Assembly (NCBI RefSeq): GCF_009176645.1
Contig: NZ_AP019007.1
Span: forward strand, 3,720,001-3,784,000
DNA from: Enterobacter oligotrophicus
GTDB taxonomy: Bacteria; Pseudomonadota; Gammaproteobacteria; Enterobacterales; Enterobacteriaceae
Length of the DNA stretch: 64,000 nt
Direction of reading: 5' to 3'
The position numbers were made by a program, and so were the translations under genes. Positions 41,489 through 55,736 of the stretch are shown in pieces. The stretch's first letter is position 1. The number at the start of each line of letters is the position of its first letter. Below the pieces are notes generated by a model. That model saw only the letters and a list, made by a program, of their open reading frames with translations, did no database searches and was not told where the DNA came from.

Positions 41489-41686
41489 ATGTTCGACACC
41501 CTCTCCAAAGCAGGTAAGTACCTCGGCCAGGCCGCCAAAATGATGATTGGCGTGCCGGATTACGACAACTACGTCGAGCATATGCGCGTCAACCACCCGG
41601 ACCAGACGCCAATGACCTACGAAGAATTTTTCCGTGACCGCCAGGATGCCCGCTACGGCGGCAAGGGCGGGGCGAAGTGCTGTTAA
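41489..41686 (+). CDS. ybdD: YbdD-family small protein, CstA partner
   Basis: The 65-residue product is almost identical to E. coli YbdD (DUF466): [20 protein letters not shown] and the C-terminal [10 protein letters not shown] with two cysteines. YbdD/YjiX proteins accompany CstA-type transporters and are needed for pyruvate uptake by CstA/BtsT. It ends 4 bases into the 3' end of the antitoxin gene on the other strand. Confidence 0.95.
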
Positions 41687-42087
41687 CCCTCTTTCGGTAA
41701 ATAGAGGCTGATCTGTTCCTGTTTACAGCCGTAGATGGCCGCCAGCTTTTCGCGGGTGCGTTTTTGCGGGCGAGAGTCCAGCGCTTCCAGCTGTGACACG
41801 GCGGACTGGCTGATACCGAGTTTGTCTGCCACCTCCTGCTGGGATAACCCGCGCAGGATACGCCACGCGGCCTGCAGGCTGACGTTTTGCCAGGTCATGA
41901 TGCTGCACACTTCGCCGGGCAATTCCACGTTATCCAGACTATCGTGTTCGACCTCAATATCCTCCAGGTCATCGTCGGTTTCGTCGTCAATTTCTGCCAT
42001 CTGTAAAAGCATACGAAAATATTCGTGATAGGGAATAACGACGTACTGCGTTTTCCCGTTATCGTCCTTGATTAGCTGTACAGCCAT
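41683..42087 (-). CDS. XRE-family antitoxin of a RelE-type toxin system
   Basis: The 134-residue product (from [12 protein letters not shown] at 42087) has an acidic N-terminal half beginning like a Phd/YefM-type domain ([15 protein letters not shown]) and a C-terminal helix-turn-helix ([22 protein letters not shown]). It follows the toxin gene and overlaps it by 29 bases, the order found in HigBA-type operons. It should bind the toxin and repress their promoter. Confidence 0.82.
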
Positions 42088-42364
42088 AGTTGGCACTCTC
42101 CTCATGCAGGTAAGTTGTTGAAGTTCTGCGCTTGACGGCCAAAACATAACAATGGTCATCGGGATCGTCCCGAAGCGTATAGATGATGCGGTAATCGCCA
42201 ACGCGTAGCCGGAAATGATTTTCTGTCGTCGATATTTTTTTGATATCGGGCCGGGGAGCCGAGCGGTCATCCAGCCCGGAGAGCTTTATCTCAATGCGGC
42301 GCTGATACCGCTCGTCAATTCTGGAAAATGCCTTTTTGGCACCATTGGACCAGACAATCTTCAT
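42059..42364 (-). CDS. RelE/ParE-family toxin
   Basis: The 101-residue product (from MKIVWSNGAKKAF at 42364) is a RelE-superfamily toxin: KISTTENHFRLRVGDYRIIYTL and the C-terminal VLAVKRRTSTTY carry the family's basic residues. Such toxins cleave mRNA at the ribosome or inhibit gyrase. It comes before the antitoxin in the operon. The pair is placed between ybdD and hcxA, which are neighbours in E. coli, so it was gained here. Confidence 0.84.
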   Translation of the reverse strand: MKIVWSNGAKKAFSRIDERYQRRIEIKLSGLDDRSAPRPDIKKISTTENHFRLRVGDYRIIYTLRDDPDDHCYVLAVKRRTSTTYLHEESANYGCTANQGR

Positions 42365-42503
42365 CCGTACCTCCACTGTACGCCCACACAAAACATAAGG
42401 AAATAATAAGACTATTAGATAAATTCCGAATTTCTAATGGGGTACTGTAGAGCGGAGAAAAACCGTGAGAAAGCGGCAAAACGCGAACCGTCGAGACGGC
42501 TCG

Positions 42504-43347: not shown

Positions 43348-44436
43348 TTAACGGTTGAAGGTTTCCACCTTCTCAAACGCGGCACGCAAAACTTCAGGCG
43401 TTAGCTCAACCGGCAAGTAGTGAATCGACTCCACCGGGCGCAGGGTGTGGGTAATCACCTTGTCCACGTCTTCACGGTTGTCGATGTCGACGTCCAGCTC
43501 GCGAAGCCGGGTCGGCAGGTTAAAGCGCTGATACGCGGCCACCAGCTGTGCCAGCACGTCGTCCTGGCCGAGCAGGGCGCTTTGCACCAGGATGCCGTAG
43601 GCTACTTTGGTGCCGTGCAGGTATTTTTCGGTTTGCGGCAGTACAGTTAACCCGTTGTGCACAGCATGCGCCGCCGCCACGCGGGTGTAGCGCTCGCCCA
43701 GGCCGCCCACCATACCGCCTCCGGCGATAATCGCATCCACCACATCCCTGAATGCCTGTGTCGCTTCGCCGCGCTGCTGGTCAGCCAGCGCTTCCTCGCT
43801 GCGTTCGAGCAGCACGTCACGGATCGCCAGCGCACCGTTGATCCCAAGACGCACCGTCAGCGGCAGGTTTTCAGGTTCTGGAGCCAGTACGACCGCTTCG
43901 TACCATTTCGCCAGCGTATCGCCGATCCCTGCCAGCAGATACTCCGCCGGGGCGTTAAGGATGATTTGCGGCTCCACCAGCACCAGGAAGTTAGCGTCGT
44001 CGAAAATCTCGAACTGCAATGCCTGACCGGCATCGTTATACCAGACGGAGAGTGGCGTCCATGCCGCGCAGGTGGCGGCAATGGTTGGGATAGCGACAAC
44101 CGGTACGCCCAGGCGACGCGCCACCGCTTTGGCGGTATCGAGCAGCGCACCGCCACCAACACCGATAACCACACTGGCATCACTGCCGGATTCGTTCACC
44201 AGATGAGTGACGTCGCGCTCGCTGCAGTGGCCCTTAAACAGCAGATGTTTTGCCCCCGGTGCGTTAAAGCTCTCCGGGAGGAAAGGCCGCGCGCCTTCGA
44301 TTGCACGCTCGCCATAAATCCATACCGCGCGGGAAAGTTGGTCCGAAGCGAAGAAATCATTCAGACGCGCCAGGCTGCCGGGATGAGAGAAGTAGTTCGC
44401 CGGGCCAGGCACGACGCGGATATCGGTGTTGCTCAT
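43348..44436 (-). CDS. hcxA: Hydroxycarboxylate dehydrogenase A
   Basis: HcxA/YbdH (362 residues from MSNTDIRVVPG at 44436) is an iron-type alcohol dehydrogenase/glycerol dehydrogenase-fold enzyme. The nucleotide-binding text is VIGVGGGALLDTAKAVA, and metal-ligand histidines are expected in AAAHAVHNGLTVLPQ and later. The E. coli enzyme reduces 2-oxo acids such as 2-oxobutanoate and oxaloacetate with NADPH. It is divergent from the ribose-type ABC operon. Confidence 0.9.
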   Translation of the reverse strand: MSNTDIRVVPGPANYFSHPGSLARLNDFFASDQLSRAVWIYGERAIEGARPFLPESFNAPGAKHLLFKGHCSERDVTHLVNESGSDASVVIGVGGGALLDTAKAVARRLGVPVVAIPTIAATCAAWTPLSVWYNDAGQALQFEIFDDANFLVLVEPQIILNAPAEYLLAGIGDTLAKWYEAVVLAPEPENLPLTVRLGINGALAIRDVLLERSEEALADQQRGEATQAFRDVVDAIIAGGGMVGGLGERYTRVAAAHAVHNGLTVLPQTEKYLHGTKVAYGILVQSALLGQDDVLAQLVAAYQRFNLPTRLRELDVDIDNREDVDKVITHTLRPVESIHYLPVELTPEVLRAAFEKVETFNR

Positions 44437-44450
44437 GATGTTGTCCTTTT

Positions 44451-44464
44451 TTAGCAAGCGCTAA
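44451..44464. promoter_or_regulatory. Dyad in the hcxA leader
   Basis: TTAGCAAGCGCTAA has five-base arms (TTAGC/GCTAA) and lies 15 bases before hcxA. It could be an operator or part of the leader; no regulator can be assigned. Confidence 0.3.
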
Positions 44465-44471
44465 CCCGATG

Positions 44472-44495
44472 TTATGTCTGGACATCCGGATGGCT
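44472..44495. promoter_or_regulatory. Candidate weak MetJ boxes between hcxA and ABC operon
   Basis: Three adjacent 8-mers, TTATGTCT, GGACATCC and GGATGGCT, each agree with about five of eight positions of the MetJ box AGACGTCT. They are weaker than the boxes at mtnKA and mtnE, and are reported because of the shared neighbourhood. Confidence 0.3.
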
Positions 44496-44578
44496 AATAA
44501 TATTTTGCTTTATCTTATGCCTTTTCCGTTGTTGTCAGTCAACCGGAGCTGTGAAAAATTCGATAAATCAGAAGAGTA

Positions 44579-46099
44579 ATGAAGGATTTAACGCAGATGG
44601 TTTCCAGTCGCCTTGAAATGCGTGGTATCAGCCTGGCCTTTTCCGGCTTTCAGGCATTATCGCGCGTGGACTTCACGTTGACCGGCGGCACCGTACACGC
44701 GCTGACCGGGGCGAACGGCGCGGGGAAATCGACGCTGATGGCGGTGCTGTGTGGCACGCACGATCACTATGAAGGTGAAATTTGCATTAATAACCAGCCG
44801 GTGGCGATCCGCGAGCCGCTCGATGCCAAACGGCTGGGTATTCACCTGGTGCAGCAGGAAGTGGACGTGGCACTCGTGCCGGGTTTAAGCATCGCTGAAA
44901 ACATTATGCTCGATCAGCTGGCGCAGCCGGGGCACCACTACAACTGGCGCGCTGTACGCCAGCAGGCAAGACAGGCGCTGGCACAGCTGGATGTCTCCCT
45001 TGACGTTCGCCGTGCCATCGATAGCTGTACGCTGGCCGAAAAGCAGCAGATTTTGCTGGCACGGGCGCTGTCGCACCACTGCCGTTTTTTAATTCTCGAT
45101 GAGCCGACCGCGCCGCTGGATGCACACGAAAGCGAACGCCTGTTTACCGTGGTAAAACGCCTGCAACAGCAGGGCATCGGCGTGGTGTTTATCTCTCACC
45201 GTATCCACGAGCTGAAAGCCATCTGCGACACCTTAACGGTGCTACGCGACGGCAAGCTGATTGAGTCCGGCCCGATGGCGGATCTCAGCGGCGAAGAGAT
45301 TGTCGAGAAAATGCTCGGCCATGAGCTGAACGACATCTATCCCCCTGCGCGACCGCCGCACAGCGAAGAGACACTGCTGCGGGTGGAAGGGCTGCACGAC
45401 GACGCGCTGCTGAAAGATATCTCACTGCACCTGCGCAAAGGTGAAATTCTTGGCATTGCCGGGCTGGCGGGGGCAGGGAAAACCGAACTTTGTAAGGCGC
45501 TGTTTGGTGCCAGCAAAAGCCGCGTGGAACACGGTGAGCTGAATCATCGGCCCTGGAAACCGCGCGACCCGGCGGACTCGGTGCTGCGCGGGCTGGCGCT
45601 GGTGCCGGAAGAAAGGCGCAAAGAGGGCATTTTTATTGATGAGCCGGTGAGCATGAACCTGGCGGTGGCGGCGGATAACACCTTTTCGCGCTGGAGCCTC
45701 TTCGGCCATCGGCAGGCGTGGCGCTGGGCGGAAGAGGTGATTGCCCGCGTCGGTGTGCGTGCGCGGGGGCCGGGGCAGGTGCTGCGTCGGCTTTCTGGCG
45801 GTAACCAGCAGAAGATCGCCATCGGAAAGTGGTTGCGAAACGACGCCAGCGTGTTGATTTTCGACGAGCCGACCAAAGGCGTGGACGTGAAAGCCAAAAC
45901 CGATCTGTTCCAGCTGATCGACGGCCTGGCGCGCGAGGGCAAAGGGGTGATTTACGCCTCCGGCGAATTTGCTGAACTGGTCGGGCTGTGCGACCGCATC
46001 TGCGTATTGTGGGACGGACGCATCGTGGCGGAAATCGCCGGGGCCGAAGCCCGTGAAGAGACACTACTTTATTATTCAACCGGAGGAACGGCGTCGTGA
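44579..46099 (+). CDS. Sugar-type ABC transporter ATP-binding protein (RbsA-like)
   Basis: The 506-residue product has two fused nucleotide-binding domains as in RbsA/XylG/MglA. The first has Walker A GANGAGKST and a degenerate signature (LAEKQQ); the second has GLAGAGKTE and signature LSGGNQQKIAIG. Such asymmetry is normal in this family. An alternative ATG lies six codons downstream. It overlaps the permease gene by 4 bases. The neighbouring methylthioribose genes suggest a pentose-like ligand, which is an inference. Confidence 0.9.
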   Translation: MKDLTQMVSSRLEMRGISLAFSGFQALSRVDFTLTGGTVHALTGANGAGKSTLMAVLCGTHDHYEGEICINNQPVAIREPLDAKRLGIHLVQQEVDVALVPGLSIAENIMLDQLAQPGHHYNWRAVRQQARQALAQLDVSLDVRRAIDSCTLAEKQQILLARALSHHCRFLILDEPTAPLDAHESERLFTVVKRLQQQGIGVVFISHRIHELKAICDTLTVLRDGKLIESGPMADLSGEEIVEKMLGHELNDIYPPARPPHSEETLLRVEGLHDDALLKDISLHLRKGEILGIAGLAGAGKTELCKALFGASKSRVEHGELNHRPWKPRDPADSVLRGLALVPEERRKEGIFIDEPVSMNLAVAADNTFSRWSLFGHRQAWRWAEEVIARVGVRARGPGQVLRRLSGGNQQKIAIGKWLRNDASVLIFDEPTKGVDVKAKTDLFQLIDGLAREGKGVIYASGEFAELVGLCDRICVLWDGRIVAEIAGAEAREETLLYYSTGGTAS

Positions 46100-47091
46100 G
46101 CAAGGCCCTTTCAGTGACGGCGGCGGAGTCTGGCCGTCAGCAAATTTTCGATTTTCTCTACAAGTGGGGCATGTTGCTGACCGTCGTCGCGCTGGTGGCC
46201 GTCTTTGGCCTGGCGTCGGACAACTTCCTCGATCCGAACAACATCATCAATATTCTGCGCTCGATTGCCATCGTGACGGTGATTGCCATCGGCGTGTCGA
46301 TCTCCCTGACCATTGGCGGGTTTGACCTTTCTGTGGGATCAACCGCGTCGCTGGCGAATGCGCTGGTGATTTCACTTTTCGTCTGGCACGGCTTTGGCAC
46401 CACCGAATCAATTCTGATCACTCTCGCGCTCTGCACGCTGGTGGGGCTGTTTAACGCGTTTCTGATTGTCGTTCTGCGTATTCCGGACATGCTCGCGACG
46501 CTTGCCAGCCTGTTTGTGATCCAGGGTGTGGCGATGACCTACAGCTACGGCGGCTCGATTACCGAGAACATGGTACTGCCGAGCGGCGACATGGCGGAAG
46601 GCACCATTCCGGCGGCGTTCAGCCTGCTGGGGCAGGTGCCGACCATTGTTGTCATCATGCTGGTGGTGACCATTGTGGCGCAGCTTGGACTCTCGCTGAC
46701 GACCCACGGTCGCCGCATGTATGCCATCGGCGGTAATCCGGAAGCGGCGCGGCTTTCTGGCATTCGCACCACGCGTTACAAGGTGGCAGCCTACGTGATT
46801 GCTTCACTGCTGGCGGGGCTGGGCGGCATTTTGCTGGCCTCGCGCATCGGTTCGTCGCAGGTGAATGCGGGCGGCGGCTATCTGATGGACGCGGTGGCAG
46901 CGGCGTGGATTGGCTTTTCGCTGGCCGGTTCCGGTAAACCGAACGCGCTGGGTACGCTGGTGGGGGCGGTCATTCTCGGTGTGCTGTCGAACGGGCTGGT
47001 GATGCTCTCCGTGCCGTATTACGCCATGGACATTATAAAAGGGCTGGTGCTCGCGGTGGCGCTGGCTATTACCTACATACAAAAACGCTGA
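46096..47091 (+). CDS. Sugar-type ABC transporter permease (RbsC-like)
   Basis: The 331-residue product is a BPD_transp_2 family permease with 8-10 membrane segments; TIGGFDLSVGSTASLANAL is the family landmark. It forms the channel for the neighbouring ATPase and binding protein. Confidence 0.9.
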   Translation: MSKALSVTAAESGRQQIFDFLYKWGMLLTVVALVAVFGLASDNFLDPNNIINILRSIAIVTVIAIGVSISLTIGGFDLSVGSTASLANALVISLFVWHGFGTTESILITLALCTLVGLFNAFLIVVLRIPDMLATLASLFVIQGVAMTYSYGGSITENMVLPSGDMAEGTIPAAFSLLGQVPTIVVIMLVVTIVAQLGLSLTTHGRRMYAIGGNPEAARLSGIRTTRYKVAAYVIASLLAGLGGILLASRIGSSQVNAGGGYLMDAVAAAWIGFSLAGSGKPNALGTLVGAVILGVLSNGLVMLSVPYYAMDIIKGLVLAVALAITYIQKR

Positions 47092-47111
47092 CAACACAAC
47101 GGGATATAAAA

Positions 47112-48176
47112 ATGAAAAAGATTGCACTCTCTTTGATGACACTGGGGTTACTCACTTCTCTGCCGGGCTTAGCGGCCACCCCCGCACCGGTTCCGGCCGC
47201 CATTGCAAACCACGACGGTCCAATCCGCATCGCGGTGATCCGTAACCTCGGCTCTGATGACAACACCACGCAGTTTGTTGCAGGGGCGATTCAGGAAGGG
47301 AAGAAACTCGGCTTTAAAGTCAGCACCTTTTTAAGCAACGGTGACGATGCCAAATTCCAGGACTTCGTGAACCAGGCGATCAGCCAGAAATACGACGGGA
47401 TTATTCTTTCTCAGGGGCGTGACCCGTATGCGACCGCGCTGGTGAAAAAAGCGGTGGATGCTGGCATCAAGGTTTCCGTGTTTGATACCGCGGTTAACGG
47501 CGAGATCCCCGGCGTAACCGTGACCCAGCAGGACGACGCTTCCCTGACCAATCTCTCCTTCGGCCAGTTGGCAAAAGATTTCAACGGCAAGGCGAATATT
47601 GTGAAGCTGTGGGTTGCGGGCTTCCCGCCGATGGAGCGCCGTCAGGCGGCCTATAAAGAACTGCAAAAACAGTACCCGGACATCAAAGAGCTGGAGTCCA
47701 TCGGTGCGGTTTCTTCTGACGTTCAGGGCGATACCGCCAACAAAGTCGGCGCGATCCTGGCGAAATATCCGAAAGGTAAAATTGACGCCATCTGGGGAAC
47801 CTGGGATGCCTTCAGCCAGGGAGCCTATAAAGCGCTGAAAGAGAATGGTCGCACGGAAATTAAACTCTACAGCATCGACATCTCCAACCAGGATCTGCAG
47901 CTGATGCGCGAGCCGGGCAGCCCGTGGAAGGTGAGCGTGGCGGTAGATCCGAAACTGATTGGTGCGACCAACGTGCGTCTGATTGCGAACAAGATTGCCG
48001 GTGAAACCACGCCTGCGACCTACGATTTCAAAGCGGCTGCGATTCCGCAGGCGCTGCTGACGGCGCAGCCTGGCGCGGTGAACGTGGCGTCTCTGGGGAA
48101 AATTATTCCAGGCTGGGGCCAGACGGAAGATTTCATTGCCCCGTGGTTTGCGACGCTCGAAGCCAGGTCAAAATAA
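47112..48176 (+). CDS. Sugar-type ABC transporter periplasmic binding protein
   Basis: The 354-residue product has a signal peptide at residues 1-21 (cleavage near GLAATPAP) and a peripla_BP_4 fold as in RbsB: IRIAVIRNLGSDDNTTQFVAGA, then YDGIILSQGRDPYATALVKKAVDAGIKVSVFDTAV. The ligand is unknown. It starts 20 bases after the permease; a REP-like pair follows, then the LVIVD gene. Confidence 0.9.
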   Translation: MKKIALSLMTLGLLTSLPGLAATPAPVPAAIANHDGPIRIAVIRNLGSDDNTTQFVAGAIQEGKKLGFKVSTFLSNGDDAKFQDFVNQAISQKYDGIILSQGRDPYATALVKKAVDAGIKVSVFDTAVNGEIPGVTVTQQDDASLTNLSFGQLAKDFNGKANIVKLWVAGFPPMERRQAAYKELQKQYPDIKELESIGAVSSDVQGDTANKVGAILAKYPKGKIDAIWGTWDAFSQGAYKALKENGRTEIKLYSIDISNQDLQLMREPGSPWKVSVAVDPKLIGATNVRLIANKIAGETTPATYDFKAAAIPQALLTAQPGAVNVASLGKIIPGWGQTEDFIAPWFATLEARSK

Positions 48177-48177
48177 T

Positions 48178-48245
48178 GCCCGATGGCGCTTCGCTTACCG
48201 GGCCTACGGTGTTGTAGGCCGCATAAGGCGCAGCCGCCATCCGGC
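48178..48245. repeat. REP/BIME-like palindromic pair (binding protein-LVIVD gene)
   Basis: GATGGCGCTTCGCTTACCGG and the facing GCATAAGGCGCAGCCGCCAT lie between two genes read in the same direction, probably inside one operon. Confidence 0.75.
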
Positions 48246-48259
48246 GAAAGGAATCCACT

Positions 48260-49501
48260 ATGTCTGCATTACCTCAACCCGAATACAGCCGCAATATGCG
48301 GCTGATTGGTCATAGCGATCAGGGCGGTCGCCCGGACGGCGTACAGCTTATGGTGCACCGCGGCTTTGCATATATCGGCCATATGGTGTCGCAGGGCTTT
48401 TCGATTGTGGACGTGCGCGACCCGAAAAACCCAAAAGCGGCAGGCTATGTACCCGCCCCGCCGGGCACCTGGAACGTGCACCTTCAGGCGCACGATGACC
48501 TGCTGCTGGTCATTAACGCCCGCGATCTGTTTGCCGATGCCCGCTTTGCTGACGAAAAGGTTTACTATACCCGTCAGGTGGGGGAAACCGTCAGCGACGT
48601 GCAGGATAAAGGCTGGAGCGCCGGGCTGCGGGTGTTTGATATCTCCACGCCCGATAAGCCGCGTGAAATCAGCTTCCTGTCCCTGAACGGTATTGGCATT
48701 CACCGTATCTGGTACGTGGGCGGGCGCTGGGCGTATGTATCAGCGCTGATCGACGGTTTTACCGACTACATCTTCCTGACCATCGATCTGGCTGACCCGC
48801 GTAAACCCGAAGTGGCGGGGCGCTGGTGGCTGCCGGGGATGAACCAGGCCGAAGGCGAAAACCCAACGTGGCCGGACGGCAAACGCTACGCGCTGCACCA
48901 CGCGATTATCGCAGGTGATACCGCTTACGGCAGCTGGCGCGACGGCGGGTTGACGCTGCTGGATGTGAAGGATCGGACGCAGCCGAAGCTGATTAGCCAC
49001 CGCAACTGGAGCCCGCCGTTTGGCGGCGGCACGCACACCGCGCTGCCGCTGCCGGACCGCGATCTGCTGGTGGTGCTGGACGAAGCGGTGCTGGATAACC
49101 AGCAGGACGGCGAGAAGCTGATCTGGCTGTTTGATATCCGCGAGACGTCGAATCCGGTGAGCATTTCCACCTTCCCGCAGCCGGATGAAATCGACTACGT
49201 GGCGAAAGGGGCGCATTTTGGCCCGCACAACCTGCATGAGAACCGGCCAGGAAGTTTTATTAGCTCAACGCTGATTTTTGCCACGTACCAGAATGCGGGC
49301 GTGCGCGCGTATGACATCTCTAATCCGTATCGCCCGGTTGAAACCGGTGCGCTGGTGCCCGCCGCGCCGGAGAGGATGATGGATACGCGGCCCAATCGCC
49401 CGCAGGTAATCCAGTCTTGCGACGTGTTTGTGGATGCGCAGGGGATTATTTACAGCACGGATTATAACGGCGGGCTGTCGGTGATTGAGTATTTGGGGTG
49501 A
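48260..49501 (+). CDS. LVIVD-repeat protein
   Basis: The 413-residue product is made of LVIVD-type beta-propeller repeats: GFSIVDVRDPKNPKAAGYV, GLRVFDISTPDKPREISFL, GLTLLDVKDRTQPKLISH and GVRAYDISNPYRPVETGAL. No signal peptide is seen, so it is probably cytoplasmic. Several conserved histidines (HAIIAG, GGTHTALPL, HFGPHNLHENRPG) could bind metal or substrate. It follows the ABC importer on the same strand and converges with mtnK. No enzyme activity is known to me for this type; a role in processing the imported compound is inferred from context. Confidence 0.75.
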   Translation: MSALPQPEYSRNMRLIGHSDQGGRPDGVQLMVHRGFAYIGHMVSQGFSIVDVRDPKNPKAAGYVPAPPGTWNVHLQAHDDLLLVINARDLFADARFADEKVYYTRQVGETVSDVQDKGWSAGLRVFDISTPDKPREISFLSLNGIGIHRIWYVGGRWAYVSALIDGFTDYIFLTIDLADPRKPEVAGRWWLPGMNQAEGENPTWPDGKRYALHHAIIAGDTAYGSWRDGGLTLLDVKDRTQPKLISHRNWSPPFGGGTHTALPLPDRDLLVVLDEAVLDNQQDGEKLIWLFDIRETSNPVSISTFPQPDEIDYVAKGAHFGPHNLHENRPGSFISSTLIFATYQNAGVRAYDISNPYRPVETGALVPAAPERMMDTRPNRPQVIQSCDVFVDAQGIIYSTDYNGGLSVIEYLG

Positions 49502-49563: not shown

Positions 49564-50763
49564 TCAGCTATACTGCCGCACTCGCGCCACCAGCTCTTCC
49601 GCGCTGTCGATACGGTCGGCAATCACAATGAGCGCTTTACCGAGCGTAATCGCGTGGCGCAGGCATTCGTGGCGCATCGCCTCATCCTGAATGGTGTCGA
49701 TGTCCGCCACGTGCGACAGCCCGACGCTGCGGCGAATCAGCTCGGTGCCGCAGAAACCGATGGTATCTTTCCAGACTTTTTTCAGGAACTCAGAGGCATA
49801 GCCTGGCGCGCTGAGTGCGGCATCACGCGTTTTTTCGTTCGCCAGCGCCTGGAAGCGCTCCGCAAAGGTATTCCACAGCTCCTGAATATCGGCCAGACGC
49901 TGTTCGCGGGCGGCAGCGGCATCGCGGATGCCCAGGTGCCCCGGCAGGCCGCAGAAGTTAAGCAGCAGGTTGCCGATGGCGGTGCCCACGTCAAAGCCAA
50001 CCGGACCAAAGTAGCCGAACTCGGCGTCGATGGCTTTCAGGCTGTTTTCGGCCACAAAAATCGAGCCGCTGTGAATATCGCCGTGCAGCAGCGCTTCCGC
50101 CTGGGAGAAGAACCGGTGCTTAAGAGAGGCCACGGCAATTTTTAGCTGGGCGTCGTCGCGCAGGGCGGCTACGTCGTTTTCCAGCTCTGCCGGGTAGTTG
50201 TTGCGCGCGTGGATCTGGTAGGGATCGTTGAAGAACAGATCTTCGGTGATCTCACACATCTCCGGATTAATGAATTTCGCGACCTGCGCTTTTTTCTCGT
50301 GCGGGTGCAGGTAAAAATCGCTGGTGTGGAACAGCGTGTGGGCGAGGTATTCACCCAGCTGTCGCGCTGCCTGCGGGTAATAATTATTTTTGATCAGCTC
50401 GCCGCGCCAGATGCGATGGCTGGAGAGATCTTCCATTACCATCACCGCCAGCGCCGGGTCGAAGTGGTGGATTTTCACCGTGTGCTGCGGGCTGTGCTGG
50501 TAGTGCTCAACGAGGGTTTGTGCCTCAAGACGCGCGCGGTCCAGCGTCAGCGGCCAGGACTCGCCAACGCAGCGCACGTAGGGCAACGCCTGCTTGACGA
50601 TGATGCGGCTCACGCCTGCGCTGTCGAAAATTTTAAACACCAGATTGAGGTTACCGTCGCCCACTTCCTGCGCCTCCACCAGCGATGAAGGGTCATCAAG
50701 GCCGCCAAACTGCTTTGCATACTCCACGGCGTCCTGGGCGGTAAAGGTACGGTATTGCGACAT
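49564..50763 (-). CDS. mtnK: 5-methylthioribose kinase
   Basis: MtnK (399 residues from [10 protein letters not shown] at 50763, the same length as the Klebsiella enzyme) phosphorylates 5-methylthioribose at C1 using ATP, the entry step of salvage of the methylthio group. Kinase-fold landmarks are [15 protein letters not shown] (Brenner-type catalytic loop) and [16 protein letters not shown] (metal-binding DxE). A longer reading from 50853 crosses the MetJ boxes and is rejected. It is divergent from mtnA. Confidence 0.96.
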
Positions 50764-50792
50764 TGCCTGTTCCTCATTGGTTTTGCTAATAA

Positions 50793-50816
50793 AGACATGT
50801 AGACGTCTATACATCT
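50793..50816. promoter_or_regulatory. Three tandem MetJ boxes between mtnK and mtnA
   Basis: AGACATGT, AGACGTCT and ATACATCT stand side by side; the middle one is the exact MetJ consensus. MetJ with S-adenosylmethionine binds such tandem 8-mers cooperatively, so both mtnK and mtnA should be repressed when methionine is plentiful. Confidence 0.88.
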
Positions 50817-50868
50817 GGATTTCATCCTGACACAATGTGATACAACAACGCAACAGGGAATTAACGAC

Positions 50869-51903
50869 ATGCAGACATTACAGACGACCAGCCTGCGGGT
50901 GGCGGATAATCAGCTCTTTATTCTCGATCAGCAGGCGCTTCCGCAGGAGAAACGCTGGCTGGATGCCTCGACGGTCGAGGCGCTGGTTGGGCATATCCAC
51001 GCCCTGCGGGTGCGTGGCGCGCCGCTGATTGGTCTCTCTGCAAGCCTGCTGCTGGCGCTGCTGGCGGAAAACGGCAAAAGCCGCGACGAGCTGGCGGTGG
51101 CGCTGGAAACCCTGCGCGCCTCCCGCCCGACGGCGGTTAACCTGATGAACAATCTTGATCGCATGAAACAGGCGCTGCGGCGGGAAGATTTTGTTCCGGC
51201 GCTGGTGGAAGAAGCGTTACGCCTGATTGACGAAGATAAACAGCTTTGCGATGCGATTGCGCGAGCGGGCAGCGCGCTGGTGAAGCCCGGCAGTCGCCTG
51301 TTGACCCACTGCAACACCGGCGGGCTGGCAACGGCGGGTGTCGGTACGGCGCTGGGCGTGATTGCCCGCGCGCATGAAGAAGGTAACGTCAGCAATGTGT
51401 GGGTAGACGAAACGCGTCCGCTGTTGCAGGGCGGTAGATTAACCGCATGGGAGCTTGGCGAGCTGGGTGTGCCGTATCAGCTGATTACCGATTCTATGGC
51501 CGCGAGCCTGATGGCAAAAGGGCAGGTTGATGCCGTGTGGGTCGGTGCCGATCGCATTGCCGCTAACGGCGATGTGGCGAATAAAATCGGCACCTACTCC
51601 CTGGCGGTACTGGCGAAATTCCACGGCATTCCGTTCTACGTTGCCGCCCCGCACACGACCCTTGACCCGGACTGCCCGAACGGTGATGCGATCCCTATCG
51701 AGCAGCGCGCCGCCAGCGAAGTGACGGGCGTGGCGGGGAGCTTTGGTGCAGTGCAGTGGGCTCCGGAAAACGCACAGGTGTATAACCCGGCATTTGACGT
51801 CACGCCTGCGGCGCTGATTAGCGGCTGGGTGCTGGATACAGGCGTGGTTACTTCTGAAGAGGTCGCCAAAGGGAAATTTCTCTCCATTGAGGAAGAGGGG
51901 TGA
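50869..51903 (+). CDS. mtnA: Methylthioribose-1-phosphate isomerase
   Basis: MtnA (344 residues) isomerises 5-methylthioribose-1-phosphate to methylthioribulose-1-phosphate. It belongs to the eIF2B-like family: [12 protein letters not shown], the active-site cysteine in [11 protein letters not shown] and the aspartate in [19 protein letters not shown]. It stands alone on the plus strand and converges with the Ner-like gene. Confidence 0.95.
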
Positions 51904-52609: not shown

Positions 52610-53152
52610 TCATGCCAGCCTCGGATACGCATCCGCAATCGCATCCCCGGTAAACTGTGCAATCCAGCCTTCCGGGTTATCGAAAATACGAATCGCCGTA
52701 AAGTTCGGCTCTGAACCCATGTCAAACCAGTGCGGCGTGCCTGCGGGCACAGAGATCAGGTCGTTTTTCTCGCACAGAACCTGATACACCTCATCGCCAA
52801 TATGCAGGCAAAACAGTCCCGCCCCCTCAACGAAGAAACGGACTTCATCTTCGCCGTGGGTGTGCTCGTTCAGAAATTTCGCGCGCAGCGCCTCTTTCTG
52901 CGGATTGTCGGCGCGCAGGCTGATCACGTCCCAGCTCTGATAGCCTTTCTCCGCCACCAGTTTGTCGATCGCATGCTGATAAGCCTCGATCACCGCTTCA
53001 GGTGCGGGATCGTGGCCTAAATCACGATCCGCCGCCCAGCGTTCAAAACGCACCCCTTTGGCATTGAGCTGTTGGGCGATCTCGGCGGCGTCGGTGCTGT
53101 GCCACTGTGGCTGGCTGGCGTCTTTGTCGGAATAAATGGTTAATGCGCTCAT
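52610..53152 (-). CDS. mtnD: Acireductone dioxygenase
   Basis: MtnD (180 residues) oxidises acireductone: the Fe form gives 2-oxo-4-methylthiobutyrate and formate, the Ni form an off-pathway product. The cupin metal site is in [14 protein letters not shown] (His, His, Glu) plus the later histidine in GTPHWFDMG. It is the last gene of mtnBCD, overlapping mtnC by 4 bases. Confidence 0.96.
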
Positions 53153-53838
53153 GAAGGGATCTGCTCCGGGTTAATCTCGTCGAACTGGTGGACCTGATGA
53201 TGGTGGCTGGTGCCATCTTCATCACCACGAATCAGCTGCAGGGTGCGAAAACCTGCCTGCTCAGCGGCGTCCAGCTCCTGATGAACATCCGACAGGAACA
53301 GGATCTGCGACGGGGCAATGCCCGTGTGTGCCGCAATGTTCTGATAAGAGTGCACCTCGCGCTTGGCACCGATGTGCGTATCAAAATAACCGCTGAACAG
53401 ATGAGTAATATCACCTTCGTCGCTGTAGCCAAATAACAGTTTCTGCGCAGCAACGGAGCCAGAGGAATAAACATAGAGATCAATGCCTTGTGCCTTCCAT
53501 TTTTCCAGCGCAGGCAGGACGTCCGGGTAAAGATGGCCGGTAAAGTCGCCGTTGACGTAGCCATCCTGCCAGATGATGCCCTGCAGGGCTTTCAGCGCGG
53601 TCGATTTGCGGTCCTCATCCATAAAGGCGAACAGCGTGTCGATAAGCGCATTGATGCTGGCGTGGGGATTGCCAGTTTCATCGCGCAGGTTGTCCAGGAT
53701 TGATTTGACCGGCTCGGCGTACTGCTGGGCGGTCACAAAGGCCGCCAGTCGCTCACGCGCGTAAGGGAACAAAACATCATGGACAAAACGGATATCGCTG
53801 GTCGTCCCTTCAATATCCGTCACAATTGCGCGAATCAT
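53149..53838 (-). CDS. mtnC: Enolase-phosphatase E1
   Basis: MtnC (229 residues from [13 protein letters not shown] at 53838) is a HAD-family enzyme that enolises and dephosphorylates 2,3-diketo-5-methylthiopentyl-1-phosphate to acireductone. The nucleophile aspartate is in [24 protein letters not shown] is HAD motif II and [13 protein letters not shown] motif IV. It overlaps mtnB and mtnD by 4 bases each. Confidence 0.96.
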
Positions 53839-54449
53839 ACTCTCTCCAGTTGTCGTAAACGCATTTCGCATTCAAATAAGAATTCTAACCCTTCCAGGTG
53901 ACGGCGGGCTTCTGCCACATCGCGTCCCCAGCAGGTTAAGCCATGACCGCGCAGAAGAAAACCATAATTAAGCGGCCGTTCCTGCGCGTAATGGGCGATG
54001 CGCGAGGCGAGGGCATCGATATCCTGGTCGTTATCAAACACCGGGATGGCGACCGTATCCAGATGCGTGGTCTGCCCGGCGAGGGATTTCTGCATCTCGA
54101 AGCCGCTAATTTTCAGTTCGGCTTCTTTGACCAGACGGGATAACACCGTGGCGTTGACGGTGTGAACGTGCAGGACGGCATTGGCTTCCGGAAACAGGCG
54201 ATAGATCAACGTATGCAGGCCCGTTTCGGCCGATGGTTTGCGGCCAGACGGCGCGCGGTTGGTGGCGATCTCCACCTGCAGAAAATCATTGGTTGTGAGG
54301 CTGCCTTTATCCTTGCCGGATTCACTGAGCCAGCAGAGGTGTTCGTCCTGACGCACCGACATATTGCCGCCGGTGGCCGGGGCCCATCCTTTAGCGCCAA
54401 TCCAGCGGCAGGCGTCGATCAGGTGTGTGAGTTGCAGGTTGTCTGTCAT
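53835..54449 (-). CDS. mtnB: Methylthioribulose-1-phosphate dehydratase
   Basis: MtnB (204 residues) dehydrates methylthioribulose-1-phosphate. It is an aldolase-class-II fold protein: [13 protein letters not shown], zinc histidines in [15 protein letters not shown] and the later [14 protein letters not shown]. It heads mtnBCD and is divergent from mtnE across MetJ boxes. Confidence 0.95.
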
Positions 54450-54492
54450 TTCCTTTTGCCCTCCCGGTCAGGCAGGAATATTGATATGGTTT

Positions 54493-54508
54493 AGACGTCT
54501 AAGCGTCT
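54493..54508. promoter_or_regulatory. Tandem MetJ boxes between mtnB and mtnE
   Basis: AGACGTCT (exact consensus) is followed directly by AAGCGTCT (two mismatches). They lie 44 bases from mtnB and 68 from mtnE and should control both by S-adenosylmethionine. Confidence 0.85.
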
Positions 54509-54575
54509 TGATTGCCAAAGACTAACATCGTGTTATAGTGTCAGCAACATAAGTATTACAAGCAGGCACAACACA

Positions 54576-55736
54576 ATGAGCAACAACGCATTGATTCCGC
54601 AAAGTAAACTTCCCAACCTCGGCACCACCATCTTTACGCAGATGAGTGCCCTGGCGCAGCAGCACAATGCCATTAACCTCTCGCAGGGGTTTCCGGATTT
54701 TGATGGCCCGACATATTTGCAGGAACGTCTTGCGTATCACGTCGCGCAGGGGGCGAACCAGTATGCGCCGATGACGGGCGTGCAGGCGCTGCGGGAAGCT
54801 ATTGCGGATAAAACGGCGGAGTTATATGGCTATAAGCCAGACGCGAACAGCGACATTACGGTAACGGCTGGTGCGACCGAGGCGCTGTATGCGGCGATTA
54901 CTGCGCTGGTGCGCACGGGTGATGAAGTGATCTGCTTCGACCCAAGCTACGACAGCTACGCACCTGCAATTGAACTTTCCGGCGGTGTGGTGAAGCGTGT
55001 GGCGCTGCAGCCACCGCATTTCCGCCCGGACTGGCAGGCGTTTTCTGCGCTGCTGAGCGACAAAACCCGCCTGGTGATCCTCAACACGCCACACAATCCA
55101 TCCGCAACCGTGTGGCAAAACGTGGATTTCGCTGCCCTGTGGCAGGCCATTGCCGATCGTGAAATCTATGTGCTGAGTGATGAAGTCTATGAGCATATCT
55201 GTTTTGCCGAAGAGGGGCATGTGAGCGTGCTGGCACATCCGCAGCTACGCGAGCGCGCCATAGCCGTTTCGTCGTTTGGCAAAACCTACCATATGACTGG
55301 CTGGAAAGTGGGTTATTGCGTGGCTCCCGCGACGATAAGCGCGGAACTGCGTAAGGTGCATCAATACCTGACGTTTGCGGTGAATACGCCTGCCCAACTG
55401 GCGCTGGCGGATATGCTGCGCGCCGAGCCGGAGCACTATCGTGAATTGCCTGCGTTTTACCGGGCTCGTCGCGATCTGTTTGTGGATGCCCTGAGCCAGA
55501 GCCGTCTGGAGATTTTGCCCTGTGAAGGCACGTACTTCCTGCTGGCGGACTACAGTGCGATTTCGGACCTGGATGATGTGAGTTTCTGCCAGTGGCTGAC
55601 AAAAGAGATCGGTGTGGCCGCTATACCGCTGTCTGTGTTCTGCGCCGATCCTTTCCCGCATAAGCTGATTCGCCTTTGTTTTGCGAAACAGGAATCGACG
55701 CTACTGGCGGCGGCAGAGCGACTGAATTTACTCTGA
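54576..55736 (+). CDS. mtnE: Methionine aminotransferase
   Basis: MtnE (YbdL in E. coli, 386 residues) is a class I PLP aminotransferase that makes methionine from 2-oxo-4-methylthiobutyrate, the last salvage step. PLP lysine lies in VSSFGKTYHMTGWKVGY; ILNTPHNPSATVW and YVLSDEVYEHI are conserved cofactor contacts. It is divergent from mtnBCD and convergent with ybdM, which it nearly touches. Confidence 0.95.
   Translation: MSNNALIPQSKLPNLGTTIFTQMSALAQQHNAINLSQGFPDFDGPTYLQERLAYHVAQGANQYAPMTGVQALREAIADKTAELYGYKPDANSDITVTAGATEALYAAITALVRTGDEVICFDPSYDSYAPAIELSGGVVKRVALQPPHFRPDWQAFSALLSDKTRLVILNTPHNPSATVWQNVDFAALWQAIADREIYVLSDEVYEHICFAEEGHVSVLAHPQLRERAIAVSSFGKTYHMTGWKVGYCVAPATISAELRKVHQYLTFAVNTPAQLALADMLRAEPEHYRELPAFYRARRDLFVDALSQSRLEILPCEGTYFLLADYSAISDLDDVSFCQWLTKEIGVAAIPLSVFCADPFPHKLIRLCFAKQESTLLAAAERLNLL

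Follow-up and report, generated by a model that had tools for sequence, protein, structure and literature searches.

We examined a 64-kb window of the Enterobacter oligotrophicus genome (contig NZ_AP019007.1, positions 3,720,001 to 3,784,000; all coordinates below are relative to this window), in which a methionine-salvage island carries, between hcxA and mtnK, the genes of a CUT2-class sugar ATP-binding cassette (ABC) importer, mtrACB, and a gene for an LVIVD-repeat (COG5276) protein, mtrY, all on the + strand. The importer very probably takes up 5-methylthioribose (MTR), as judged from its sequence relatives, and mtrY comes and goes with the dehydrogenase gene hcxA among importer-bearing genomes (see below). 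A first reading of this stretch (hereafter the original prediction) had placed an importer and an LVIVD gene here, and the open reading frames and family models bear out both the coordinates and the gene names. The genes and regulatory elements of the island are as follows:

44579..46099, + strand: mtrA, ATPase with two ABC domains (PF00005 in two stretches; below every NCBIfam cut-off among the models shown)
46096..47091, + strand: mtrC, permease (PF02653)
47112..48176, + strand: mtrB, periplasmic binding protein of the 4ry8/5ulb type (PF13407)
48260..49501, + strand: mtrY, LVIVD/COG5276 protein, predicted seven-bladed propeller without a signal peptide (PF08309)
43348..44433, - strand: hcxA/ybdH, iron-containing alcohol dehydrogenase family (NF007880, 707 bits against a cut-off of 429; PF00465)
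44472..44495: weak MetJ box run TTATGTCT GGACATCC GGATGGCT in the hcxA-mtrA intergenic region, 15/24 to the AGACGTCT consensus
49564..50853, - strand: mtnK, methylthioribose kinase (TIGR01767, 505 bits against a cut-off of 275); an internal ATG start is possible at 50763
50793..50816: strong MetJ boxes AGACATGT AGACGTCT ATACATCT at mtnK-mtnA, 20/24, the top three-box run of the window
50869..51903, + strand: mtnA, methylthioribose-1-phosphate isomerase (TIGR00512, 412 bits against a cut-off of 279)
52610..55736: mtnD, mtnC and mtnB (- strand) and mtnE (+ strand), the remaining salvage pathway; these four open reading frames, named by reading the sequence, served as tblastn queries in the survey of loci
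54485..54508: MetJ boxes at mtnB-mtnE, 17/24

The importer and its probable ligand

The composition of the operon, with a double-ABC ATPase, a BPD_transp_2 permease and a Peripla_BP_4 binding protein, whose N-terminus looks like a signal peptide by eye, is that of the CUT2 (RbsABC-type) importers. Among the NCBIfam models shown (for the ATPase, the best 25 of 194 families), none of the three subunits reaches the equivalog cut-off of a named ribose, arabinose, xylose or AI-2 importer, the best scores being 430 against 689 bits for the ATPase (AraG) and 168 against 398 bits for the permease, and on this basis these identities were rejected. The original prediction was right in calling the importer pentose-type, whereas its identity as a ribose importer does not follow from these scores. 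MtrB shares 81% identity with the solved structure 5ulb; second among its matches comes 4ry8, the Tlet_1677 protein of Thermotoga lettingae, titled as a 5-methylthioribose transporter binding protein. It is homologous to 4ry8 and displays its class motifs, at 31% identity, which leaves room for a shifted ligand preference.

The phyletic pattern ties the importer to the salvage kinase. Across 217 Enterobacteriaceae genomes, mtnK was found in 78, mtrB in 60, mtrC in 59, hcxA in 56 and mtrY in 47, with strict nesting of mtrY within mtrB within mtnK; accordingly, no mtrB ortholog was present in the 139 genomes of this set that lack mtnK. For these counts mtrC orthologs were accepted at E-values up to 1e-100 and mtrB orthologs from about 60% identity upwards, with fragments of such genes included where they are broken; hcxA was accepted at E-values up to 1e-80 with weaker relatives left out (58–100% identity across most of its length, G087 having a partial copy). 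They include two broken copies of mtrY (G087 and G172), two hcxA genes with an in-frame stop (G130 and G250) and broken copies of mtnK (G087, G110, G113 and G163). Five of the 78 mtnK genes match at only about 40% identity (G071, G218, G152, G120 and G264), and none of these five genomes has the importer. G087, with stops or breaks in mtrY, mtrB and mtnK and a completeness of 49%, may reflect either a sequencing problem or true decay.

The island further displays the tandem met boxes of the MetJ regulon, weak between hcxA and mtrA and strong at mtnK-mtnA and mtnB-mtnE. A score of 15/24 or better is reached by eight scan positions in the 64 kb, and no three-box run between hcxA and the ATPase gene scores higher than the one at 44472-44495. 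When each hcxA-mtrA intergenic region of related loci was compared with 200 single-base shuffles of itself, the three-box run exceeded the shuffles at p < 0.05 in 58 of 59 regions, mostly as this same run or a near variant, the 59 regions coming from related species and thus not being independent. The original prediction had likewise called these boxes weak. In the hcxA-mtrB intergenic regions of a stand-alone hcxA-mtrB-mtrY module (see below), the three-box run exceeded the shuffles in 0 of 13 cases, with two boxes kept in some, and this module thus seems largely out of MetJ control.

The importer half of the system is already in print as a prediction accompanied by regulation data: Augustus and Spicer named mtrACB as a probable methylthioribose importer in 2011 (PMC3228920). 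The genes of that paper match those of the window in order, in the neighbours ybdH, mtnK and mtnA and in membership of the MetJ regulon, with Enterobacter cloacae among its species. It gives MetJ repression ratios of 0.12 or below in E. coli, Yersinia or Klebsiella (ybdH, several of the mtn genes, mtrB) and a ratio of 0.42 for Klebsiella mtrA. Among other sources, a 2014 regulon study lists mtnXYZ and mtnKABCDE under MTR uptake and salvage (PMC4239095), mtrB appears among PhoP-dependent genes of Pectobacterium (PMC7843439), one paper refers to MTR transporter experiments in the supplement of another (PMC6302742) and a Klebsiella study merely lists the same gene row (PMC5566837). Since the 2011 paper had already predicted it, the label “undescribed” of the original prediction fails for the importer, whereas the uptake role it proposed is well supported by the homology to the MTR-titled binding protein, the strict nesting in mtnK genomes and the published MetJ control. 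Thus, from homology, gene context and published regulation, we infer with some firmness that MTR is the physiological ligand of mtrACB. As E. coli, and perhaps other bacteria without the salvage pathway, excrete MTR (PMC3228920), the importer would mark those bacteria that can scavenge its sulfur.

The fold and relatives of MtrY

MtrY passes the Pfam LVIVD model PF08309 (25.7 bits against a gathering cut-off of 20.2), and its closest named relatives, from Enterobacter, are 97% identical. When the genome was scanned in all six frames with this model, no match came up, not even MtrY itself, probably since the repeats do not score singly. The protein is predicted to be a seven-bladed propeller and is homologous over most of its length to another such propeller, the binuclear-metal phosphotriesterase Sb-PTE (haloalkylphosphorus hydrolase of Sphingobium TCM1; 5hrm and 5ioj). 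The family alignments display invariant histidine and glutamate positions, and the conserved residues of MtrY are H41, H74, H148, H213, H259, E275 and H323; the conserved histidines of the original prediction are thus real. If the metal ligands of Sb-PTE are, as we take them to be, E201, H258, H389, E407 and H475, four of them align with H148, H259, E275 and H323 of MtrY. From these alignments MtrY is probably a metalloenzyme; its being a hydrolase or lactonase is a tentative proposal. No signal-like N-terminus was seen by eye in any of the nine MtrY proteins inspected, that of the window included, which led us to reject a periplasmic location and to predict a cytoplasmic one; two distant, longer homologs do possess such an N-terminus. 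Searches of the literature for a function of LVIVD/COG5276 proteins or MtrY turned up none among the listings and passages covered, and the available portion of PMC3228920 names mtrY, describes its role as “a mystery” and holds neither a function for it nor the Sb-PTE homology, the mtrY-hcxA counts or the rhizobial operons presented here. For the LVIVD protein the analysis adds a predicted fold and a candidate site, names hcxA as its partner gene and places a few relatives in a sulfur context.

Of 8000 scored candidates, 6649 were homologs of MtrY, and 21 stretches were fetched from 69 plasmid records with a MtrY match; 19 of these lie outside Enterobacterales, five of them lacking annotated genes, so that their neighbours are named by tblastn only. 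Four rhizobial loci (Agrobacterium leguminum, Ensifer, Shinella and Sinorhizobium BG8) share the order ATPase, permease, binding protein, MtrY, with MtrY 70–72% and the importer parts 32–43% identical to those of the window. The Agrobacterium binding protein is of the MTR type, since its best solved match is 4ry8 (E-value 4e-57), followed by 5ulb (2e-32), with no other chain past 1e-15. Neither mtnK nor hcxA gave a tblastn match (E-value up to 1e-10 over half the query) in the 19 stretches or in a further locus (L068); one of the 19 has a different iron-containing alcohol dehydrogenase. The case that the original prediction had named as refuting it, the cluster in genomes without mtn genes, was absent from the 217 Enterobacteriaceae genomes; in a wider form it does occur, as rhizobial importer-MtrY operons with no mtnK in the stretch fetched.

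The neighbourhoods of these 19 loci are varied. The importer-MtrY locus of A. leguminum adjoins genes for a luciferase-like monooxygenase and two oxidoreductases of the SfnB type, and SfnB-type genes also lie beside MtrY in Rhizobium NXC24 and Sinorhizobium chiapasense, giving a sulfur context in three of the 19. In three other loci MtrY is accompanied by tetronate genes, an FAD oxidoreductase and an importer of the ribose type; further neighbours include an FMN-dependent hydroxy-acid oxidase (one locus), FAD-linked oxidases (two) and tricarboxylate-type transporters (two), and four loci show none of these themes. A wholly MTR-specific MtrY is ruled out by these pairings with a ribose-type importer and tetronate genes, with tricarboxylate-type transporters and with hydroxy-acid oxidoreductase-like genes. 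Distant homologs (L070, L264 and L265) directly adjoin tricarboxylate-type transporter genes, and some relatives carry the name “RNA polymerase subunit sigma-70”, apparently by misannotation. In two database proteins (P0004 and P0005) MtrY is fused to a TonB-dependent receptor plug domain, possibly as an assembly artefact.

Joint presence of mtrY and hcxA

The 60 genomes with mtrB fall into 47 with both mtrY and hcxA and 13 with neither, none having one alone. On a tree of 58 mtrC genes (G172 was dropped for stops, and G087 has no mtrC), each of the two genes changes seven times, always jointly with the other, and five of these changes lie on well-supported branches. Twelve of the 13 genomes lacking both could be viewed: four retain mtrACB and mtnK in place with both flanks gone (hcxA before mtrA, and mtrY between mtrB and mtnK), leaving gaps of roughly 20 to 300 bases; six have mtrACB and neither gene in the stretch, and two have a lone mtrB. 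In the genus of G134, the same two of three genomes hold mtrY and hcxA. As the 13 genomes without mtrY still have mtrC and mtnK, MtrY is dispensable for import and salvage, which rules it out as a pump subunit or a salvage requirement.

Gene order was compared in 80 named loci, kept from a total of 148. All five genes, hcxA, mtrA, mtrC, mtrB and mtrY, occur together in 59 of them; a stand-alone hcxA-mtrB-mtrY module is found in 12 (Rahnella, Serratia, Erwinia, Winslowiella and Pantoea coffeiphila), and five, all from Tatumella, have mtrB-mtrY. The rest comprise a metagenome contig with hcxA-mtrY, the Providencia locus described below and two loci that are cut short. In 46 of the 47 mtrY genomes of the set, the gene immediately upstream of mtrY is mtrB, even where the pair is far from mtrAC.

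Several individual loci deviate from this arrangement or extend it. The trio is plasmid-borne in Erwinia and Rahnella (L251, L252 and L139) and thus can move as a unit. Where mtrB-mtrY or a lone mtrB lies away from mtrAC, apparent metG or formate-dehydrogenase genes are nearby, as judged by eye (L165, L169, L174, L175; L166, L172). In Providencia burhodogranariea (L144), mtrACBY stands next to mtnKADCB, and the stretch examined contains no hcxA; in the metagenome-derived G083 (L073/L149) hcxA and mtrY lie together without mtrB between them, mtrB being on another contig.

A proposed side branch and its rivals

We propose that external MTR would be captured by MtrB, taken in through MtrAC and phosphorylated by MtnK, thereby feeding the methionine salvage pathway, with MetJ shutting the gene set off when methionine is plentiful. 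MtrY would stand outside the pump as a cytoplasmic propeller enzyme, evolutionarily related to Sb-PTE and with a metal in its central channel, acting on a compound that arrives with MTR or derives from it. Its reaction may be the hydrolysis of a lactone or ester; HcxA, presumably a hydroxycarboxylate dehydrogenase, would then interconvert the 2-hydroxy acid so formed with a 2-oxo acid, the two enzymes forming a common side branch. A search of the literature by the gene name hcxA gave no title on the dehydrogenase among the matches listed. Hydrolysis to a hydroxy acid is our preferred guess because hydroxy-acid and acid-sugar oxidoreductases recur near MtrY, a pattern that is not a test. The metal, the hydrolysis and the shared branch are what we infer here. 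The explanation as a whole, an MTR importer with a metallo-propeller hydrolase in a side branch with HcxA, appears to us reasonably probable. We attach low probability to a more specific form, in which MtrY as a lactonase would open a lactone of MTR, or of a closely related compound, and HcxA would oxidise the resulting 2-hydroxy acid, giving an MtnK-independent sulfur-sugar branch that the plasmid-borne hcxA-mtrB-mtrY module would carry in Enterobacterales, and in which the rhizobial importer-MtrY pair would feed flavin-dependent desulfurisation (SfnB-type and luciferase-like), yielding sulfur from MTR without mtn genes.

Several observations weigh against this proposal. On the side of the enzyme, the presumed ligand E201 of Sb-PTE has no clear counterpart in MtrY, falling on W71 when counted from the shared histidine and in a gap of the HMM alignment; the pairing of E275 depends on the aligner, as MAFFT pairs it with E407 and the HMM alignment with another glutamate; and MtrY has the extra invariant H41, with H213 outside the first HMM alignment. 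In the structure list 5hrm is only eighth (Z 30.7), below WD40 proteins reaching 32.3, so that the propeller fold alone proves little. Unlike that of Sb-PTE, moreover, the activity of MtrY is a prediction. Homologs of the Pararhizobium type sit with a ribose-type importer, and hence the family is not MTR-specific. On the side of the pairing, the sign test on the five well-supported pairs gives p 0.0625, the lowest attainable value, and the concordance of intact genes is imperfect because of the hcxA stops in two mtrY genomes of one genus (G130 and G250) and the broken mtrY of G087 and G172. In the genus of G084, the same eight of 30 genomes hold mtrY and hcxA in one linked island (the search covered these two genes). 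In nine genomes hcxA is present although both the importer and mtrY are missing, which indicates that HcxA also works alone. Finally, co-presence as such was already known: the available portion of PMC3228920 reports ybdH and mtrY as both missing from most Pantoea and Erwinia, and as occurring there with mtrB2 as a trio.

There is a modest chance that the concordance has no function behind it and simply follows from linkage and common inheritance. The two genes lie within 10 kb in 33 of 47 pairs, only five independent pairs are well supported, and linked, partly plasmid-borne islands exist. Against this, seven pairs are at least 31 kb apart on one contig and seven more lie on different contigs, although the latter come from drafts and may be closer than apparent; moreover, mtrACB lies between both genes in the full island, and the four genomes described above keep mtrACB without either flank. 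It is also unlikely that MtrY is a mutarotase or a binding or handover protein giving MtnK the right MTR anomer with no net hydrolysis. Mutarotases such as RbsD accompany CUT2 importers, mtrY stands next to mtrB in nearly all Enterobacteriaceae genomes that have it, and RbsD/FucU is also present at one MtrY locus; however, 13 genomes with importer and mtnK lack mtrY, some homologs adjoin TauA/SsuA-like or tricarboxylate-type transporters instead, and the presence of mtrY tracks a dehydrogenase.

An oxidase related to SBP56/methanethiol oxidase, which would handle methanethiol or a methylthio compound from salvage, appears improbable. SBP56 proteins are likewise propellers, their model PF05694 matches 25 of 26 MtrY family members at E-values up to 0.1 (best 6e-5), the histidines are conserved and three of 19 loci have a sulfur context; but the match spans one repeat and reaches 17.1 bits for the MtrY of the window and 18.8 for a second protein against a gathering cut-off of 34, which rules out membership of SBP56. 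The near full-length match is Sb-PTE, and at three other loci MtrY stands with acid-sugar genes rather than sulfur genes. Equally improbable is that the importer mainly serves a 5-modified pentose other than MTR, such as 5-deoxyribose, or a broad set, with MTR incidental: the E. coli MtnK and MtnA do act on 5-deoxyribose, according to PMC12632272, but MetJ control, the island shared with the mtn genes and the title of 4ry8 speak for MTR.

With MtrY seen as a probable metallo-propeller enzyme that comes and goes with HcxA, a gene once called a mystery, with homologs in the thousands, becomes half of a pair open to test; the link may also explain the membership of hcxA in the methionine regulon. 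If true, the fold would moreover gain a natural function, its studied member Sb-PTE being described as acting on flame-retardant esters (PMC11656708). Just beyond the island, a ParE/RelE-type toxin gene (PF05016) adjoins a helix-turn-helix gene (PF01381) at 41683-42391 on the - strand.

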